A stretch of 64,000 nt of DNA from Streptomyces sp. SID8374 (GTDB taxonomy: Bacteria > Actinomycetota > Actinomycetes > Streptomycetales > Streptomycetaceae). This document shows positions 46,946-54,778 of this stretch, piece after piece. The stretch covers positions 1,736,001 to 1,800,000 of the forward strand of contig NZ_WWGH01000002.1 of assembly GCF_009865135.1 (NCBI RefSeq), read 5' to 3'. Within the stretch, counting starts at the first letter, position 1. Each line of letters begins with the position of its first letter. Below the pieces are notes generated by a model. That model was not told the DNA's origin. It did no database searches and saw nothing but the letters and a program-made list of their open reading frames with translations. A program made the position numbers and the translations under genes.

Positions 46946-47863
46946 TCAGGGCTCCAGCAGCGGAAGCGCACGCCGGGACGGGCCCCTGGGGATGGGCCCG
47001 GTCGGCGGCGTGCCCGCGCCGAACCCGGCGGGTATCCGCTCCAGGACACCGCCCGCGAACACGTCGTACAGCGGCAGCGTCTCCAGGTGCACATAGCCGA
47101 TGTGGCAGTCGCACACGGCGAGCGGGCAAGCCCGGGGGCCGAGCGCCGCGCGGTAGCTGCCGTCGTAGAGGTTGCCCAGCTCCGCCTTGACGAAGTGGCA
47201 GCGGCGCACCGTGCCGTCACCGTCCACCGAGATCACCGACTCACCCGTCCGGCAGGGCAGCCCCGCCGAGGTGTGCGGATGTCTGCTGTAGGGGAAGAGC
47301 GGGTCCAGCTCCGTCCACCGCTCGGCCTCCTCGTCGGTGTACGTATGGCCCTCGGCGGCGTTCACCCAGAGGTAGACCTCGGAGGGCAGCGCGGCGCGCA
47401 GCCGCCGCGCCTCGTCGAGGTGCTCGTCGAACCCCACCACGCCCACGCTGTAGCGGATGCCCCGGGCGGACAGCTCCTGGCACTTCCCGAGGAACCGCTC
47501 GTACGGTGTCTGCCCCGGGTGGTACGTGCACCAGAGCGCGACCCGCTCCGGATCGGCGTCCGCCAGCCATGCGGTGCGGCCGCTGAGGTTCGTCTGGATG
47601 GCGACCCGGCCGATGTGCGGCAGATGGGAGAGCTCGGTCAGCGCGCGCCGGTACCAGGAGCGCACCAGGCCCTCGCCCCACGGCGTGAACAGCACCGAGA
47701 GCCGGTCACCGGTCTGCGCCGCCGCCCACGCGGTGAACCGCTCCAGCGCCTCCCGGTCCGCCGTCAACTGGGCCCTGCTGTCACGCCGTTTGGCGAACGG
47801 GCAGTACGGACAGTCGTAGTCGCACGAGGCCAGCGGGCCCCGGTAGAGGATGGTCAGGTCCAT
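46946..47863 (-). CDS. STM4011-family radical SAM protein
   Basis: A 305-residue radical SAM enzyme beginning MDLTILYRGPLASCDYDC. The cluster-binding cysteines are C14, C18 and C21 (CDYDCPYC). FTPWGEGLVRSWYRRAL and IQTNLSGRTAWL follow the usual beta-barrel order, and C-terminal cysteines (RRCHFVKAELGNLY, CPLAVCDCHIGYVHLE) could hold an auxiliary iron-sulfur cluster, as in SPASM-type peptide-modifying enzymes. It is the last gene of the STM4015-4011 operon; its ATG lies 7 bp after the STM4012 stop. Substrate unknown. Confidence 0.9.
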   Translation of the reverse strand: MDLTILYRGPLASCDYDCPYCPFAKRRDSRAQLTADREALERFTAWAAAQTGDRLSVLFTPWGEGLVRSWYRRALTELSHLPHIGRVAIQTNLSGRTAWLADADPERVALWCTYHPGQTPYERFLGKCQELSARGIRYSVGVVGFDEHLDEARRLRAALPSEVYLWVNAAEGHTYTDEEAERWTELDPLFPYSRHPHTSAGLPCRTGESVISVDGDGTVRRCHFVKAELGNLYDGSYRAALGPRACPLAVCDCHIGYVHLETLPLYDVFAGGVLERIPAGFGAGTPPTGPIPRGPSRRALPLLEP

Positions 47864-47870
47864 GGCCCGC

Positions 47871-49262
47871 TCACTTCCGCTCGTACGCGGCCATCGCGGC
47901 CCGCACCCCGGGGGAGAACAGCGCCGGACCCAGCGCGTCCGAGTGGGCCAGCCCCAGCGGGGAGAGCCGCAGCAGACCCTCCGGAGCCTGGCCGTCCAGC
48001 CAGCCCCGGTCCGCGAACCGCTCCAGCTCGGCGGGGAAGTCCTCCGACGGGTCCGTGCCGAAGCGGGCGCGGTAGTCGGCCACGGGCAGACCGGCTGCCT
48101 GGAGCAGCGACTGGAGGAGGTGGCGCCTGCGGGCCTCATCCGCGTCGACGTATCTGCCGACCTCGGCCCGGGAGAAGTCCTCGGTGGTGGTGAAGCGGTC
48201 GATGATGGAGCGGATCTCCCGCATCTCCACCGCGTAGTCGAAGGAGTAGTGCAGGGCCGCCGTGTAGGAACGGGCCCCGCAGCCGAGCCCGATCATGCCG
48301 TCCGTCTGGCACGCGTAGTCCTCGGGGCCGTCCTGCGACTCGCGGGGGGCGTCGGCGCGCCGGAACATCCGCATCGACACCTGCTCGTAGCCGTACGCCA
48401 GCAGATGGTCCCGGCCCACCGCGTACAGCCGCAGCCGCTGCTCGTCCCAGGCGGCCTGCTCCAGGGCCTCCGCCTCCGGGCCGCTCCCGCTTGCACCCAG
48501 ACGGTGCAGACCGGTCAGCGGGCGGACGTACAGCGGGTAGAGATACAGCTCCTCGGGCCGCCAGGCCAGCGCGGCGTCCAGCGAGGTGAGCCAGGTCCGC
48601 TCGGTCTGGCCGTCGATGCCGTAGATCAGGTCGATGTTCAGCACCGGTATCCGGGCGTCCCGGATCCGGCCGAGCGCCCCCTCCACCTCTGCCCGGCGCT
48701 GCGGCCGGACGGCGGCCCGCGCCTCTTCGTCCACGAAGCTCTGTACGCCGATGCTGACCCGGGTCGTCCCCCGGTCCGCCAGCACGGCCAGCCGGTCGGC
48801 GGTCGCGGTGGACGGGGACGTCTCCACCGACAGCGGGACCGCGAGCAGGTCGGCGCCCATCCGCTTCTCCGCTATGTCGCAGAGCCGCTCCAGCTCACCC
48901 GCGGTCAGGAAGGTCGGGGTGCCGCCGCCGAACGCCGCCGCCGCGAACCGCACCGGCTCGTCGTCGCCGAGCGCGTCCCGTACGGCTGCGGCCTGCCGGT
49001 CCAGGGCGTCGAGATAGCGGGTCGTCAGCTCCTCGGGCGCGCCGATGCGGGTGAAGAGGTTGCAGAAGCCGCAGCGGACCTCGCAGAACGGTATGTGGAG
49101 GTAGAGGGAGAGGGCATCCTTGGGCTCCGCCGCCCACAGCTCGCGCAGTGCGGGCCGGTCCGCCAGGGGGCGGTAGGCGGTCTTGTGCGGGTAGGCGTAG
49201 ACGTAACTCTCGTACGGCCTCACGGCGGGCGTGCCCGTCGCCGTGGCGGTGCTGGTGGTCAT
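47871..49262 (-). CDS. STM4012-family radical SAM protein (HemW-like)
   Basis: A 463-residue radical SAM protein with C60, C64 and C67 in LHIPFCEVRCGFCNLF, the pattern of coproporphyrinogen III oxidase/HemW relatives. FGGGTPTFLTAGELERL and VSIGVQSFVDEEARAAVRPQ are also HemW-like, but the STM4012 family is distinct and uncharacterised. HemW-type proteins bind haem or use SAM for methylation-type chemistry, so either is open. ATG 49262 overlaps the STM4013 stop (ATGA), showing tight coupling. Confidence 0.9.
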   Translation of the reverse strand: MTTSTATATGTPAVRPYESYVYAYPHKTAYRPLADRPALRELWAAEPKDALSLYLHIPFCEVRCGFCNLFTRIGAPEELTTRYLDALDRQAAAVRDALGDDEPVRFAAAAFGGGTPTFLTAGELERLCDIAEKRMGADLLAVPLSVETSPSTATADRLAVLADRGTTRVSIGVQSFVDEEARAAVRPQRRAEVEGALGRIRDARIPVLNIDLIYGIDGQTERTWLTSLDAALAWRPEELYLYPLYVRPLTGLHRLGASGSGPEAEALEQAAWDEQRLRLYAVGRDHLLAYGYEQVSMRMFRRADAPRESQDGPEDYACQTDGMIGLGCGARSYTAALHYSFDYAVEMREIRSIIDRFTTTEDFSRAEVGRYVDADEARRRHLLQSLLQAAGLPVADYRARFGTDPSEDFPAELERFADRGWLDGQAPEGLLRLSPLGLAHSDALGPALFSPGVRAAMAAYERK

Positions 49263-50107
49263 CAGGAGGCCCCCGGTTCGAGGAAGAAGTGGGCGTACGG
49301 CACGGTCCAGACGGCTTCGTGGCCGAGCCGGTGGCCGGTGTAGCCGTCGTCGCCGTACGTCGTGCCGTGGTCGGAGCAGACGATGGCGAAGCAGCGGCGG
49401 CGGCTGCTCGCGGCGGCGAAGAGCCGGCCGATGTGCCGGTCGACGTACTCCAGGGCGGCCGCGTGCGTGGCCCGGGAGTCGCCCGCCTCACGGGTCGCGC
49501 CCGGGGTGTGGAACCAGTTCGGCTGGTGGAGCGCGGACACGTTGACGAAGAGGAAGAGCCGCTGCTCCCGCGGAAGTTCCGCCACCACCTTCTCGGCGCG
49601 GGTCACCTGCTCCTCGAACGAGGTCGGGGAGGCGACACCGAACTCCGGCTCCCAGTGGCTCTCCTGGAACATCCCGGGCAGCACCGACCCCAGCGCCCCC
49701 TGCCGGTTGAAGAACCCGACACCGCCGATGCACACCGTGCGGTAGCCCTCGGCGGCCAGACCCGACACCAGGTCCGGGGTGTCGAAGACGAACGTGCCGT
49801 CCGCCGTCGTCTCGCTGCCCGCGAAACGCGCCGCGAACAGCCGCGGATGCGGGCCGGGGGCGGCGGGCGTCGGCAGGAACCCGGCGAACATCGCCTGGTG
49901 CGAGGCGTAGGTGAAGCTGCCCGGCGCGTGCCGCTTCTCCCAGACCCCGCCGGGGAGATGGGCGGCCAGATTGGGGATGCGCCCGGCGGCGGCCAGCTCG
50001 GCGGCGACATCGTGGCGCAGGGTGTCCAGGGTGACCAGCAGCAGGTCATGGGTGCCCACGACCTCGGCCATATCGGGGCGTGGGGGGTCAGGCAGACGTG
50101 ACGGCAT
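49262..50107 (-). CDS. STM4013/SEN3800-family hydrolase (alkaline phosphatase/sulfatase fold)
   Basis: A 281-residue protein. LLLVTLDTLRHDVAAELA at the N-terminus has the metal-binding aspartate and nucleophile threonine position of the alkaline phosphatase superfamily; the C-terminal CSDHGTTYGDDGYTGHRLGH supplies further metal ligands. It is short for a sulfatase and has no signal peptide, so a cytoplasmic phospho- or sulfo-ester substrate is likely. ATG 50107 is chosen because GAGGAA is 6 nt upstream; ATG 50071 has none. It overlaps the STM4014-type gene by 20 bp. Confidence 0.88.
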   Translation of the reverse strand: MPSRLPDPPRPDMAEVVGTHDLLLVTLDTLRHDVAAELAAAGRIPNLAAHLPGGVWEKRHAPGSFTYASHQAMFAGFLPTPAAPGPHPRLFAARFAGSETTADGTFVFDTPDLVSGLAAEGYRTVCIGGVGFFNRQGALGSVLPGMFQESHWEPEFGVASPTSFEEQVTRAEKVVAELPREQRLFLFVNVSALHQPNWFHTPGATREAGDSRATHAAALEYVDRHIGRLFAAASSRRRCFAIVCSDHGTTYGDDGYTGHRLGHEAVWTVPYAHFFLEPGAS

Positions 50108-51245
50108 GGTCGTTCCTCGTTCGGTCCAGTACGGCGGCGACCTGCGCCGCATAGGTGTCCAGCCCCTCGGCACCGCTGCCCGGCAGGCCGGTGAGCCCGG
50201 GCAGCAGATCACCGAAGGCGTTGACCTCGCCGACGGCGAAGCGCCGCCAGCCGGCCGCGGGCAGCAGGTCCACGCCCACACAGAGCGTCCCGGGGAAGCA
50301 GGCGGCGGCCCGCTCGCACATCGCCAGCGCCTCGCGCCAGCAGCCGCCCACCGCCGACACGGCGGCCCGGACCTCGTCGAGATCGCCGCGGGCGCCCCCC
50401 AGGTGGAGGTTGGTCATGGGGGAGAGGCTGGTGCGCACGACGGCATGGGTGGCCCGGCCGCCGACCACCACGATCCGCAGATCGGCGGCCCGCCCCCGCT
50501 GCGACGCCTTCGGCAGCCAGCGTTCGATGTGCAGCCCGTCCGGGGCGAGCGCGTCCACGAGTGCGCCCACCTCCTGCTCCGTGGTGTACCGGCGGACCCG
50601 CAGCGAGTTGAACAGCCGCCCCTCGGCGTCCCGTTCCACCGAGGTGCTCGCCCGGACCCGGCCAGGCCCTGCCGTCTCCACCGCCAGCACCCCCGAGGCG
50701 GAGGAGCCGTGGGCGAGCTTCACGAACGCCCGGGGCATCCGGTGCTCCCGCATCAGCGCCCGTACGTCGGACCAGCCCCGCACCTCCGCCGCGTCCGGGC
50801 CGGACGTGGGCGAGGGCGGAACCGGCACCTCCGCGGCCGCCAGGAGGCCGTGGCAGAGCCGCTTGTCGAAGAGCGCGGCGAGGTCACCGGGGGAGGTGAG
50901 CACCTCGGCACCGGCCGCCGAGGCCGCCCGCGCCACCTCGCCGACCGCCGTGCGGAACCCGGCGTACCACCGTGCGGACCCCTCCACCCGGGTCGGATCG
51001 TCGACCCCGCGCAGCCGCCGCTCCACCTCCGCGTTCTCGCCGGGCGAGTCGATCCGTACGGTCTCGCCCGGCTCGAACGCCGCCTCGCCGCGCAGCACCT
51101 GGAGCCAGGGCACCACCCGGGCCGGCTCCAGCCCGGCGGCCCGCACGGCCTCCCGGAAGAAGGCGACCCGGCGGTTCTCCGGGTTGCCGACGACCGCGAA
51201 GCGCGGGGCCGCAAGGCTCCCGGGGCTACTCGCTGACGGCGACAT
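50088..51245 (-). CDS. STM4014-family ATP-grasp-like protein
   Basis: A 385-residue protein. The middle and C-terminal parts look like an ATP-grasp fold: MPRAFVKLAHGSSASGVLAV resembles the lysine and glycine-rich loop, and VGVDLLPAAGWRRFAVGEVN with NAFGD the metal-binding acidic/asparagine end. ATP-grasp enzymes join a carboxylate to an amine or hydroxyl through an acyl phosphate. The first 110 residues form a separate domain (FAVVGNPENRRVAFFREAV). ATG 51245 has GGAG 5 nt upstream and lies inside the last codons of the STM4015-type gene (20-bp overlap). Confidence 0.85.
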   Translation of the reverse strand: MSPSASSPGSLAAPRFAVVGNPENRRVAFFREAVRAAGLEPARVVPWLQVLRGEAAFEPGETVRIDSPGENAEVERRLRGVDDPTRVEGSARWYAGFRTAVGEVARAASAAGAEVLTSPGDLAALFDKRLCHGLLAAAEVPVPPSPTSGPDAAEVRGWSDVRALMREHRMPRAFVKLAHGSSASGVLAVETAGPGRVRASTSVERDAEGRLFNSLRVRRYTTEQEVGALVDALAPDGLHIERWLPKASQRGRAADLRIVVVGGRATHAVVRTSLSPMTNLHLGGARGDLDEVRAAVSAVGGCWREALAMCERAAACFPGTLCVGVDLLPAAGWRRFAVGEVNAFGDLLPGLTGLPGSGAEGLDTYAAQVAAVLDRTRNDHAVTSA

Positions 51246-52191
51246 AGCGCTCCGGTTCCTCGTCCTCGTCCTCGTAGTCCTCCTCGGCCTCGCCTGCCTC
51301 GACCACGGCCGGAGCACACGCGGCCCTGATCCGCTCCAGCACCGGGCCGGTGAGGTAGTGGTGGCGCAGGTCGAGAGCGGAGAGGTGGTTCAGGGGCTGC
51401 CCGTTCAGCAGGGCCTCCCCGCCCGCGTCGCTGAGGGTGCCCATGGAGAGCGCGAGGGTCTCCAGCTGGGCGACGACGGGCGCCGACGCCACGGCCACCG
51501 CTATCTCGTCCTGGAGCTCGCTGTTCTGCAGGCCCAGGTGGCGCAGCCGGGGGAACGTGCCGCCCGACAGGACCGGCCCGATGTCCTCGACGGTGGCGTC
51601 CGCTCCGTACCACGAGCTGCCGAACCACAGGTCCAGCCGCTCCAGCGCGGGCAGTTCACTCGCGGCGACCGCCCGCACCAGATCGCCGGGCAGCCCGCCG
51701 GACTCGAAGCGCAGCGACTTCAGCGCCGTATGGCGGACGGGCCGCAGCGCCAGCCCCTCCTGGCCGCAGCCGCGCACCGTGAACTCCTCCAGCAGTGGGA
51801 ACGCTTCGAGCACCGGCGTGATGTCACACATGCGCAGCCACGACACCTCGCACTCCTCGCCCACCACATCGGCGAGGAAGAGCCCCCGCAGGGCCGGGAA
51901 GCGGTCCGCGTGGGCGACGATCAGCTCCATCACCGGGGCGAACGGCGTGTACTCCTGATGCCACCAGGGGCCGATCAGGAGCGCCCGGACCCGCGTGGTG
52001 TCGACCGTGTCGAGGAACCGCTGCCACACGGCGGCGAAGTCCGTCCGCTCGTCGTAGCCGCACCCCAGCAGCCAGGCCACCACGTCGGCGTCGGGAAGCG
52101 CCGGGGAGGTGTCCGCTCCGGACGGCGGCGCCAGGAAGTGGACCGGCAAGCCGTGGAACCGGTCGGGATGTTGGATGTGGACGGGGGTCAT
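51226..52191 (-). CDS. STM4015-family leucine-rich protein, copy 1
   Basis: A 321-residue cytoplasmic protein. After an N-terminal domain of about 150 residues, it has leucine-rich-repeat-like units (LPALERLDLWFGSSWYG, FPRLRHLGLQNSELQDEI, APVVAQLETLALSMGTLSD, HLSALDLRHHYLTG). An acidic linker (EAGEAEEDYEDEDEEPE) leads to the last residues RYVAVSE. The tail is shared with copy 2 although the linkers differ. It probably serves as scaffold or substrate for the radical SAM and ATP-grasp enzymes encoded downstream; this is inference. ATG 52191 lies 6 bp after the copy 2 stop. Confidence 0.85.
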   Translation of the reverse strand: MTPVHIQHPDRFHGLPVHFLAPPSGADTSPALPDADVVAWLLGCGYDERTDFAAVWQRFLDTVDTTRVRALLIGPWWHQEYTPFAPVMELIVAHADRFPALRGLFLADVVGEECEVSWLRMCDITPVLEAFPLLEEFTVRGCGQEGLALRPVRHTALKSLRFESGGLPGDLVRAVAASELPALERLDLWFGSSWYGADATVEDIGPVLSGGTFPRLRHLGLQNSELQDEIAVAVASAPVVAQLETLALSMGTLSDAGGEALLNGQPLNHLSALDLRHHYLTGPVLERIRAACAPAVVEAGEAEEDYEDEDEEPERYVAVSE

Positions 52192-52197
52192 GACACC

Positions 52198-53151
52198 TCA
52201 CTCCGACACGGCGGTGTAGCGGCCCTCGGCGCCGCGGTTGTCCCACGGCTCGTTCCGCTCGGAGAGGTCGACACGCACCCCGTGCGGCTCCAGGGCCGAG
52301 CGGACCCGCTGCTCCATCGCCTCGGTGAGGAAGTGGTGGTGGAGGTCCAGCAGGTCGAGATGGGTGAGCGGCTGCCCTTCGAGGAGCGCGGCCGCCCCCT
52401 CGTCCCCCAGCGTGCCGTTCGACAGGTCGAGGGTCTTGAGCTGGGCCACGACCGGGGCGGACGCGAGGGCCGCCGCGATCTCGTTCTGCACCTCGCTGTT
52501 GCGCAGGCCGAGGTGGTGCAGGCGGGGGAACCGGGTGCCCGAGAGCAGCGGTGCCAGGTCCGCCACATCGGTGTCGCCGCCGTAGGCAGAGATGCCGAGC
52601 CAGAGGTCCAGCCGCTCCAGCGCGGGCAGTTCGCTGTCCTGCACCCCGCGGACCACCTGCACGGGCAGGCCGCCCGCCTGGATGGTCAGCGACCGCAGCC
52701 GCTCGTGCTTCGTCGGCGGGAACAGCAGGTCGGTGCCGCCCCGGACCCCGAACTCGGTCAGCGCGGGGAAGGCGGCCAACAGCGCCGTCACATCGGACTG
52801 TTCGATCCAGGTGATCTCGGCCTGCTCCGCCTCCAGATCCCCGACGAACACGGCCTCCAGCGAGGTCAGCCGGTCGGCGGCGGCGATCACCAGATTGATC
52901 GGCACCGAGGAGTCCTCCTCGTACGCCTCGCCCCACTGGCCGATGATCAGTACCTTGGCCCCGGCCGGGTCGACCGCGTCCAGGAAGCCGGCGAACTCCT
53001 GCTCCCAGCTCCGGTCGTCGTCGCCGTACGGATCGACGGAGATCCGCCAGGCCACATCATCGGCGGCGGGCCGGTCGGCCGGACGGTCCTTGTGCTGGAA
53101 GTCGACGGCCGGAAGGCCGCCGAACGCTTGCAGATGCTGCGCACCGTACAT
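52198..53151 (-). CDS. STM4015-family leucine-rich protein, copy 2
   Basis: A 317-residue paralogue of the next gene, first in the operon. The LRR-like part is closely similar (LPALERLDLWLGISAYGG, FPRLHHLGLRNSEVQNEI, APVVAQLKTLDLSNGTLGD, HLDLLDLHHHFLTE), while the N-terminal third and the linker (RNEPWDNRGAEG) have diverged. It ends RYTAVSE, matching copy 1 with different codons. AGGAG precedes ATG 53151 by 9 nt. A tandem pair implies duplication and perhaps two alternative substrates or a heteromeric scaffold. Confidence 0.84.
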   Translation of the reverse strand: MYGAQHLQAFGGLPAVDFQHKDRPADRPAADDVAWRISVDPYGDDDRSWEQEFAGFLDAVDPAGAKVLIIGQWGEAYEEDSSVPINLVIAAADRLTSLEAVFVGDLEAEQAEITWIEQSDVTALLAAFPALTEFGVRGGTDLLFPPTKHERLRSLTIQAGGLPVQVVRGVQDSELPALERLDLWLGISAYGGDTDVADLAPLLSGTRFPRLHHLGLRNSEVQNEIAAALASAPVVAQLKTLDLSNGTLGDEGAAALLEGQPLTHLDLLDLHHHFLTEAMEQRVRSALEPHGVRVDLSERNEPWDNRGAEGRYTAVSE

Positions 53152-53371: not shown

Positions 53372-53698
53372 GTGTACCGGCAGGGCGATGTACTGATCAT
53401 GGCGCTGGAGGAGTCGGCGGTGCCCGCCCCCTTCCTCAAGGCTTCGGGCGAACTGCGCGACGGGCGGGGGCGGCTGGTGCTGGCGCTGGGTGAGGTGACC
53501 GGGCACGCGCACGCCGTGCAGGGACCCGGCCGGCTGATCCGGGAGGCGGGACCGTTCGGCCCGATGCTGCTCCATCTCCCCGAGGGCGGGCGGGTGGTGC
53601 ACGAGGAGCACGCCACGATCGCGCTGCCGCAGGGCTGGTTCCGGGTGGTGCGCCAGAGGGAGTACGCGCCCGGCGCGATCCGCATCGTCGCGGACTGA
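53372..53698 (+). CDS. Small conserved protein of unknown function
   Basis: A 108-residue protein beginning YRQGDVLIMALEES (after the start) with LVLALGEVTGHAHAVQGPG, HEEHATIALPQGWFRVVRQ and a final REYAPGAIRIVAD. The histidines in GHAH and HEEH could bind a metal. It looks like a compact beta-rich domain. I know this type of protein as a frequent partner of DUF6745 proteins, encoded next here, but no function is established. GTG 53372 has GGGGAG upstream. It is divergent from the STM4015 operon. Confidence 0.75.
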   Translation: MYRQGDVLIMALEESAVPAPFLKASGELRDGRGRLVLALGEVTGHAHAVQGPGRLIREAGPFGPMLLHLPEGGRVVHEEHATIALPQGWFRVVRQREYAPGAIRIVAD

Positions 53699-53776: not shown

Positions 53777-54778
53777 ATGCAGCACGTGAATTCCTGGCGG
53801 GACGTGGCGGCGGCGACCGGTGCGGCGGACCGGGTGGCCGCCGAGGAGGGCGTACGGCGCGCCTACCGCACCGCCGGGCTCGCCGAGCCCGAGCGGATCG
53901 TCTGGGCCGAATCGCCCCGGGCGGCCGTCGAAGCCGTCGAGAAGCTGGCCGACGCCGGGCGTTCGGTGCGCGAAGAGGTCCGCACCCGGCCGTGGGCCGA
54001 GGAGCGCCGCCGGATGTACGACGAGCTGGGCCCGGCCGGCTGGTCCGCCCTCTGGTCCGCCACCGGGGCCCAGCTGTGGGAGACCACGGCCGCGCTCGCC
54101 GAGCGCATCCGGTCCGGTGTCGTCGCCGATCTGGCGCCCAGGCCGGAGGACGAGGGCGGTTTGCGGCTGGTCCTCCTCGACGCGGTGCTCGGGCAGCACG
54201 ACGCCGCCTGGCTCGCCGCCTTCGACGGGCGCGGTGACCGGCTCACCGGCCTGGCCGAGGTCGCGCGGAACGCTGGCTGGTGGTGGCCGTACGAGAAGGC
54301 CGTGGTCATCAGCGAACGGCCCGAGGTCCTGCACCGCGACGAGGCGGGCAGACTCGACCACGGGGCCGGGCCCGCCCTCGCCTACCCGGACGGATTCGCC
54401 CTGTACGCCTGGCGCGGTATGCCGGTGCCCGCCGCCTTCCTGGCGGAGCTGGCGTCGCTGACCCCGCAACGCATACGGGAGGAGGAGAACGCGGAGCTGC
54501 GCCGCGTGATGCTGGAGTTCTACGGCTACGACCGCTACCTCACGGAGTCGGGGGCCGAGCCCGTCCACCGCGACGAGACGGGCATCCTCTGGCGCATCGC
54601 GCTCGAAGGCGACGAGGACGTGGTGATGGTCGAGGTGGTCAACTCCACCCCGGAACCCGACGGCACACACCGCACCTACTGGCTCCGCGTACCCCCGGCG
54701 ACCCGGACCGCGAAGGACGGGGTCGCCTGGACGTTCGGACTGGACGGTGCCGCCTACGCGCCGGTACGTCAGACCTGA
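53777..54778 (+). CDS. DUF6745-type protein of unknown function
   Basis: A 333-residue protein that I recognise as DUF6745-like. The core is NAGWWWPYEKAVVISERP, LHRDEAGRLDHGAGPALAY, FALYAWRGMPVPAAFL and the helix RRVMLEFYGYDRYL, followed by a second half-repeat (PVHRDETGILWRIAL). These proteins occur in diverse bacteria beside a small RQGDVL protein, as here (78 bp upstream), and near leucine-rich-repeat genes. A pair with the neighbouring STM4015 operon is suggestive but unproven. ATG 53777 follows GGGACGGGA. Confidence 0.75.
   Translation: MQHVNSWRDVAAATGAADRVAAEEGVRRAYRTAGLAEPERIVWAESPRAAVEAVEKLADAGRSVREEVRTRPWAEERRRMYDELGPAGWSALWSATGAQLWETTAALAERIRSGVVADLAPRPEDEGGLRLVLLDAVLGQHDAAWLAAFDGRGDRLTGLAEVARNAGWWWPYEKAVVISERPEVLHRDEAGRLDHGAGPALAYPDGFALYAWRGMPVPAAFLAELASLTPQRIREEENAELRRVMLEFYGYDRYLTESGAEPVHRDETGILWRIALEGDEDVVMVEVVNSTPEPDGTHRTYWLRVPPATRTAKDGVAWTFGLDGAAYAPVRQT

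Follow-up and report, generated by a model that had tools for sequence, protein, structure and literature searches.

A fixed C-terminal glutamate tail of STM4015 leucine-rich repeat proteins, a possible substrate handle for the STM4011-STM4014 enzymes

Introduction

Why should two neighbouring proteins of one bacterium finish in the same few residues? The question is raised by a cassette of six genes in Streptomyces sp. SID8374. The window analysed here is a stretch of 64,000 nucleotides (positions 1,736,001 to 1,800,000 of contig NZ_WWGH01000002.1), and all coordinates of the cassette refer to it. The minus strand of 46946-53151 carries two copies of STM4015, which encode leucine-rich repeat (LRR) proteins, together with STM4014, STM4013, STM4012 and STM4011. 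Copy 1 of STM4015 ends in RYVAVSE and copy 2 in RYTAVSE. A sequence-only reading of the locus had proposed that this tail is the site modified or recognised by the radical S-adenosylmethionine (SAM) and ATP-grasp enzymes of the cassette, as part of a protein-modification system or of one resembling those of ribosomally synthesized and post-translationally modified peptides (RiPPs).

The same reading had described the families as known by name but uncharacterised, which agrees with the literature that was searched. No functional study of the STM4011-STM4015 families was found by gene or family names, by accessions or by 2RA8, the solved structure of an STM4015 homologue, and no paper naming 2RA8 was found; the search reached mainly literature outside subscription journals. 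Two papers contain the names in tabulated lists, STM4013.S in one of sigma-54 binding (PMC3844500) and STM4015 in one from a selection (PMC2784778).

Results

The two STM4015 copies lie at 52198..53151 (copy 2, 317 aa; NF038076, E 2.7e-116, profile positions 1-290 of 290) and 51226..52191 (copy 1, 321 aa; E 3.5e-111, reaching position 290 of 290). Both matches extend to the end of the NCBI model, so the tail is already part of a public profile. A search of the 7.78 Mb genome assembly with copy 2 returned just these two STM4015 genes. The tail and stop codon of copy 1 (51226..51249) overlap the start of STM4014 (ATG at 51245), and those of copy 2 (52198..52221) overlap no other cassette gene, as had been described. 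The codon reading also agreed with the earlier description: copy 1 uses CGC TAT GTC GCC GTC AGC GAG and copy 2 uses CGC TAC ACC GCC GTG TCG GAG, with different codons for Tyr, Val and Ser. Because the two copies are 50% identical, a tail common to them alone is weak evidence, and its weight depends on the rest of the family.

We collected STM4015 open reading frames (ORFs) that scored 150 or more and whose genuine stop codon lay within the fetched stretch (loci L043-L133 and L164-L233), keeping one for each distinct set of last 120 residues. The sampling is uneven, with 57 of the 80 named loci belonging to Paenibacillus or close kin. The exact terminal Glu was present in 177 of these 183 unique proteins and was the strictest position of the tail. 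Arg at -7 and Tyr or Phe at -6 were each found in 175/183 and Thr, Ala, Ser or Gly at -2 in 168/183, so that the end typically reads R[YF]xx[VLI][STAG]E-COOH after a variable acidic linker. The six proteins without a terminal Glu come from L111 (the motif followed by extra residues), L172, L121, L164, L122 and L182 (a broken gene). The Glu was invariant in a 51-member STM4015 alignment. The alignment of C-termini from many genomes, which the sequence-only reading had put forward as a check, thus revealed no free variation.

This conservation holds at large distances. All eight representatives below 40% LRR identity keep the Glu, the Arg and the Tyr or Phe, although they were chosen by the order of their scores against a profile that itself includes the tail. 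Among pairs with 20-30% identity in the LRR region, the last seven residues were 50% identical and the preceding 15 residues 8% (811 pairs, which are not independent). The ends of the other cassette proteins vary, the commonest last residue being Ala for STM4014 (33/127), Leu for STM4013 (45/126), Lys for STM4012 (47/125) and Arg for STM4011 (43/123). Constant ends do occur elsewhere, namely Thr in DUF6745 proteins (40/43), in which the Pfam domain extends to the protein end, and Asp in relatives of a small protein of 108 aa (41/41). The end R[YF]xx[VLIM][SATG]E was found on none of the ORFs outside the cassette families among 24,636 ORFs of at least 50 aa with a stop (1.4 expected by chance), and a tail borne by other families near the cassette was rejected on this count.

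A chance resemblance, or a by-product at the DNA level of the overlap with the STM4014 start or of a recent gene copy, has a negligible probability. The overlap exists for copy 1, but copy 2 overlaps nothing, the codons differ and the copies fall into separate clades. In 66 Streptomycetaceae STM4015 genes (one of them broken) every tail position shows synonymous codon variation, and loci from nine phyla again have tails with a final Glu. The evidence from codons, clades and the family as a whole agrees with the earlier view that the match is at the protein level, and it rules out a chance or DNA-level origin. The tail is confirmed as real and old.

We then compared the tail with the presence of STM4014 in 392 Streptomyces genomes, calling STM4014 at E <= 1e-20 and STM4015 at E <= 1e-40; the two genome lists were compared by eye, and C-termini were read for part of these genomes, at the listed match positions. 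STM4014 was present in 190 genomes and STM4015 in 195, and all of the 190 also had STM4015. The five genomes with STM4015 and without STM4014 (G320, G361, G385, G605 and G660) have STM4015 proteins ending in SISVGPLTY, RYVSIAV, RSICVEGLP, ICVGPVSY and HNFVADGRDF. No tail-bearing STM4015 was therefore seen in a genome without STM4014, although five is a small number (terminal Glu 0/5). The absence of STM4014 was checked at E <= 1e-20 in G605 and G660 and also at 1e-6 in G320, G361 and G385.

A tree of 107 Streptomycetaceae STM4015 proteins, built with the last 40 residues removed, gave a similar picture. Here any protein ending in Glu was counted as tail-bearing, which includes ...RSVAISE of G618, and a copy was called linked when STM4014 lay on the same fetched stretch. 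The tree omits rows that matched fewer than 200 profile positions or lacked a stop; some rows of G618, G360, G678 and G407, whose cassette genes are broken, dropped out for their length. All 78 linked copies had the tail. The unlinked copies comprised 18 with the tail, three of which stand in a tandem array beside STM4014, and 11 without it. The tail-less rows occupy three places of the tree, every one at a locus away from the cassette; this count of three changes sets tail-less against unlinked tail-bearing rows and was read off the tree. After removal of the three array rows (L275), the unlinked loci numbered 15 with and 6 without the tail in genomes with STM4014, and 0 and 5 in genomes without it (Fisher test, p 0.007, a guide only since the rows share ancestry).

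Eight of the 11 tail-less rows form one clade, and seven of these end in ...VGP(L/V)(T/S)Y; two others end in ...FVADGRDF. The ...VGP(L/V)(T/S)Y end is itself conserved among the unlinked paralogues of its clade (L248, L251, L252, L277, L293, L294 and L297). Mere degeneration of the tail-less copies is not the whole story, as alternative ends are shared within a clade.

The six genes of the cassette each consist of a single open frame with a single stop, and all score above their own NCBIfam cut-offs. This upholds the earlier inventory of two radical SAM genes, an ATP-grasp-like gene and two tandem leucine-rich STM4015 genes on one strand. The genes had also been called tightly overlapped, which is correct for STM4015/STM4014, STM4014/STM4013 and STM4013/STM4012, but 7 bases separate STM4012 from STM4011 and 6 bases separate the stop of copy 2 from the start of copy 1.

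STM4014 (50088..51245; NF038074, E 7.4e-139) is predicted from its sequence and model to be an ATP-grasp enzyme of the RimK/LysX/ArgX group. In NCBIfam, STM4014 members matched the RimK family in 25 of 38 cases at E <= 0.05, MptN in 18, CofF in 14 and LysX in 13; for the protein of the window, these matches lie far under the family cut-offs. The patterns DxR...R...TN and D...[ED]xN are typical of the RimK/LysX/MptN/CofF group, and in loose form they matched 126/127 and 125/127 STM4014 proteins. The AlphaFold2 (AF2) model of STM4014 (predicted local distance difference test score, pLDDT, 93.3) gave Z 24.0 to both ArgX/LysW (3vpb) and LysX (3vpd), with RimK tied at 23.4, and 19.6-24.0 across the listed LysX, ArgX and RimK entries. 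RimK with RpsF was also among its near structures, and its best Foldseek match was the graspetide ligase PsnB (E 1.6e-12). In sequence searches a smaller profile placed LysX first (8e-5), and a deeper one placed an inositol-pyrophosphate kinase (2.7e-4) ahead of LysX (0.005).

The two radical SAM proteins are of different kinds. STM4012 (47871..49262; NF006067/PRK08208.1, E 1.9e-192) matched HemN (3e-58) and NocN (1e-35) in the PDB and appears to be a HemN/NocN-like relative of the class C enzymes. STM4011 (46946..47863; NF038073, E 2.6e-127) matched the C-terminal region of SkfB (0.0022) and, weakly, many radical SAM families including SPASM maturases; five further Cys are conserved in 123/123 members, and the protein is probably SPASM-like. 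The CX3CX2C motif of radical SAM enzymes was found in 123/125 STM4012 and 123/123 STM4011 proteins.

STM4013 (49262..50107; NF038075, E 2e-129) had been called sulfatase-like. Type I sulfatases carry the formylglycine motif C/S-x-P-S-R. In STM4013 the motif FT[YL][AP][AS]H, also seen as FTYA[AS]H, was present in 120 of 126 proteins (6 unmatched) and puts Thr at the nucleophile position, which is occupied by Cys or Ser in sulfatases. CxPSR or SxPSR occurred within the first 110 residues of only 1/126 proteins, and a type I sulfatase was rejected. The best PDB match was a nucleotide pyrophosphatase/phosphodiesterase (9e-8), and the sequence is best described as that of a putative hydrolase of the alkaline-phosphatase superfamily lacking the formylglycine motif.

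STM4015 proteins are folded LRR proteins of about 280-350 residues. The AF2 model of copy 2 (pLDDT 95.7) had 2ra8 as its best Foldseek match (E 1.4e-20, TM 0.79). 2RA8 is a homologue from Bacteroides fragilis (Q64V53; E 1e-75), and the alignment runs through its tail, which ends in YSYPMITE. It differs from copy 2 in that its aligned residues begin at chain position 72; a B. finegoldii relative of the 2RA8 protein has an N-terminal WGR domain.

Discussion

Since the strictest position of STM4015 is its terminal Glu and its neighbour is a ligase of the LysX/ArgX group, STM4015 and STM4014 are best read as substrate and ligase. We propose, with a probability of about 0.5, that the last residues of STM4015 serve as a substrate handle for STM4011-STM4014. 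STM4014 would activate a carboxylate of the C-terminal Glu and join it to an amine, which is probably that of an amino acid. Radical chemistry on the tail or on the joined group would follow, carried out by STM4011 and STM4012, and the role of STM4013 would be hydrolysis of a phospho-intermediate or release of the product. The same enzymes would act in trans on all paralogues with the tail, whether these stand in tandem or at other loci of the genome. Most likely, a group is built on or attached to the terminal Glu of the LRR protein by the cassette, and this protein may be either a carrier or the final recipient. Likeness to LysW favours a carrier, and the presence of several diversified STM4015 paralogues favours a recipient. 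We infer the chemical steps, their order, the joined molecule and the choice between these two roles.

RimK, the glutamate ligase of S6, acts at the C-terminal Glu of a protein. STM4014 resembles it in fold and in family matches; the partner protein differs, and STM4014 belongs to a constant gene set that includes two radical SAM enzymes. Graspetide ligases such as PsnB activate carboxylates on ribosomal products whose precursor core has repeated Thr and Glu. The cassette, unlike these systems, has no short precursor with such a core, and its conserved part is a single terminal tail. STM4011 and STM4012 resemble SkfB, HemN and NocN individually, and differ in being paired together with an ATP-grasp enzyme and an LRR protein. 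A further close comparison is with LysW/ArgW and LysX/ArgX, in which a ligase of the same group acts with a protein whose very last residue is a conserved Glu, preceded by a short acidic/aromatic stretch. The terminal Glu of LysW is the covalent attachment point for LysX/ArgX, a Glu-to-Ala change in LysW/ArgW leads to arginine auxotrophy in Natrinema, and the GSWGR motif of LysX recognises EDWGE of LysW (PMC10433800). The differences are that LysW is a small Zn-binding protein and STM4015 an LRR protein, and that the LysW pathway has its own downstream enzymes where the cassette has radical SAM enzymes and a phosphatase-superfamily hydrolase. No STM4015 ends in EDWGE (0/183) and no STM4014 contains GSWGR (0/127); because both motifs are absent, the cassette is not a LysW system.

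The absence of these motifs is one of several observations that weigh against the proposal. Arg and Tyr are not universal in the tail, as Salmonella has YMNAMYTE, E. coli YMNPMFTE and Bacteroides YYPMITE. Glutathione synthetase (Z 22.1), PPIP5K2 (21.5), inositol-phosphate kinases and D-Ala ligases lie little below LysX and RimK in the comparison of STM4014 structures, and the reaction cannot be read from the fold alone. A role purely as carrier does not sit well with several STM4015 paralogues in one genome. The six tail-less unlinked copies in genomes that possess STM4014 mean that tail loss is not confined to genomes lacking the ligase, and that a genome can keep the system when one of its paralogues has dropped out of it. 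In a looser search the draft genome G391 showed part of STM4014 at the edge of a contig and lacked STM4015. Of 16 genomes with STM4013 that were searched in full, 14 had STM4015, and the other two, both metagenome assemblies, showed none. Finally, AF2 confidence is fairly high in the tail (86 in the last block and 86-89 across the last two), which a docked structural role could explain too.

Exact C-terminal motifs are common docking signals, and it is conceivable, if rather improbable, that the tail tethers the LRR protein to one of the cassette enzymes, STM4014 or another, while the LRR domain recognises a different molecule, which is the one modified. The diversified LRR domain with a constant tail, and one enzyme set common to up to four STM4015 copies, would both fit such an arrangement. 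A docking motif, however, need not end exactly at the residue that is strictest here, the terminal Glu (177/183), which is the acceptor of LysX/ArgX on LysW. The same confident AF2 tail might instead point to a C-terminal cap kept for folding of the LRR domain. This is very unlikely, since the tail comes after a linker that is 8% identical in pairs with 20-30% LRR identity, and the LRR domain is retained where the tail has gone, both at the three positions in the tree and in every one of the five genomes with STM4015 and no STM4014.

PqqE joins Glu and Tyr, and MftC decarboxylates a C-terminal Tyr. Radical SAM enzymes of the cassette could likewise link residues of the tail to each other, such as the -6 aromatic to the terminal Glu, or rearrange them in RiPP-like or cofactor maturation, the tail being released later. 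The SPASM-like nature of STM4011 and the Tyr or Phe at -6 in 175/183 proteins speak for this, together with the precedent that MftC acts on a C-terminal Tyr, as described in PMC9062424. We consider it unlikely, because the -6 aromatic is absent from the Salmonella and E. coli tails, the precursor would be an entire LRR protein (although a separate one might be encoded far away), and no other family, hence no peptidase or exporter family, consistently accompanies the cassette; the widest one, in a comparison of unannotated families, spans 4 groups.

The earlier proposal is supported in part. That the tail is modified or recognised by the radical SAM and ATP-grasp enzymes gains support from linked copies keeping the tail, from its lack in the five genomes that have STM4015 and no STM4014, and from an enzyme kinship that would fit modification. 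Protein or peptide modification suits the enzymes, whereas a RiPP in the usual sense is a weaker description, the bearer being a folded LRR protein with no consistent extra family beside it. A broader and more doubtful extension is that diversifying LRR recognition proteins share one group built at the terminal Glu by the ATP-grasp and the two radical SAM enzymes, supplied in trans to all paralogues that keep the tail; the LRR domain would pick the target, and the group would be a cofactor or would itself act on that target.

STM4014 occurs in about half of the sampled Streptomyces species (190/392). The cassette is spread over eight phyla, and a ninth has it in reduced form. A constant protein end, lacking in genomes without the ligase, lets experiments be directed at one residue and at the mass of one peptide. 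If the terminal Glu is modified, the cassette would represent a new protein-attached chemistry combining an ATP-grasp ligase with two radical SAM enzymes.

By record titles and taxonomy lines, the eight phyla are Actinomycetota, Bacillota, Deinococcota, Pseudomonadota, Cyanobacteriota, Myxococcota, Chloroflexota and Planctomycetota, and the reduced form is in Bacteroidota. The complete five-gene set was present in 120 of 125 loci that hold STM4014 and STM4013. These 125 loci had no STM4015 copy in 1 case, one in 87, two in 31, three in 2 and four in 4. No consistent extra partner family was found: the widest other neighbour family (15 ORFs) spans 4 groups, in a comparison of unannotated families of ORFs of at least 70 aa, and a conserved transporter, peptidase or regulator was set aside as a partner. 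For a defence system, the PADLOC-DB models gave a single weak match to the cassette proteins (STM4012 to PDC-M51A, 1e-4).

Two divergent genes on the plus strand of the window accompany the cassette in some lineages. They encode a small protein of 108 aa (53372..53698), which has no Pfam or NCBIfam match, and a DUF6745 protein (53777..54778; PF20530, E 1.2e-116). The pair was seen in Actinomycetota, Deinococcota, Methylobacterium and Chloroflexota loci, and DUF6745 occurred with STM4014 in 42 loci. A SUKH-1 (SMI1/KNR4) family, of which one member was tested, is found in four cyanobacterial loci with several STM4015 copies (Nostoc/Calothrix; L123:7245-7988).

A Cof-type HAD phosphatase gene follows STM4011 in the E. 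coli and Salmonella loci that were read. In E. coli NRG 857C (one locus read, L266:3237-8773) the whole cassette, with the tail YMNPMFTE and the trailing Cof-type HAD gene, lies between yihU-side sugar genes and typA-glnA. A relative of STM4012 was present in 154 of 5,426 complete E. coli genomes. The Salmonella record NZ_CP019203.1 (L050) is labelled as a plasmid and has the cassette beside typA, glnA and glnL, which are normally chromosomal genes. In Bacteroides finegoldii (L267:9820-11778) a HAD phosphatase domain is fused to STM4011, and STM4013 and STM4012 are short remnants in that record.

STM4013 also has a second subfamily. In 13 of 16 regions STM4013 scored 340-366 and no other cassette genes lay within the stretch; the other three regions were a cassette with broken frames (L219) and two weak matches (L232 and L233). 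On a Kitasatospora plasmid (L048:4738-8157) a member of this subfamily stands with a MoaA-like radical SAM gene, a thymidylate-kinase-like gene, a small protein and a NUDIX gene. At L049:6681-8844 a small gene, STM4013, a NUDIX gene and an annotated lasso-peptide B2 gene lie beside CRISPR-like repeats.

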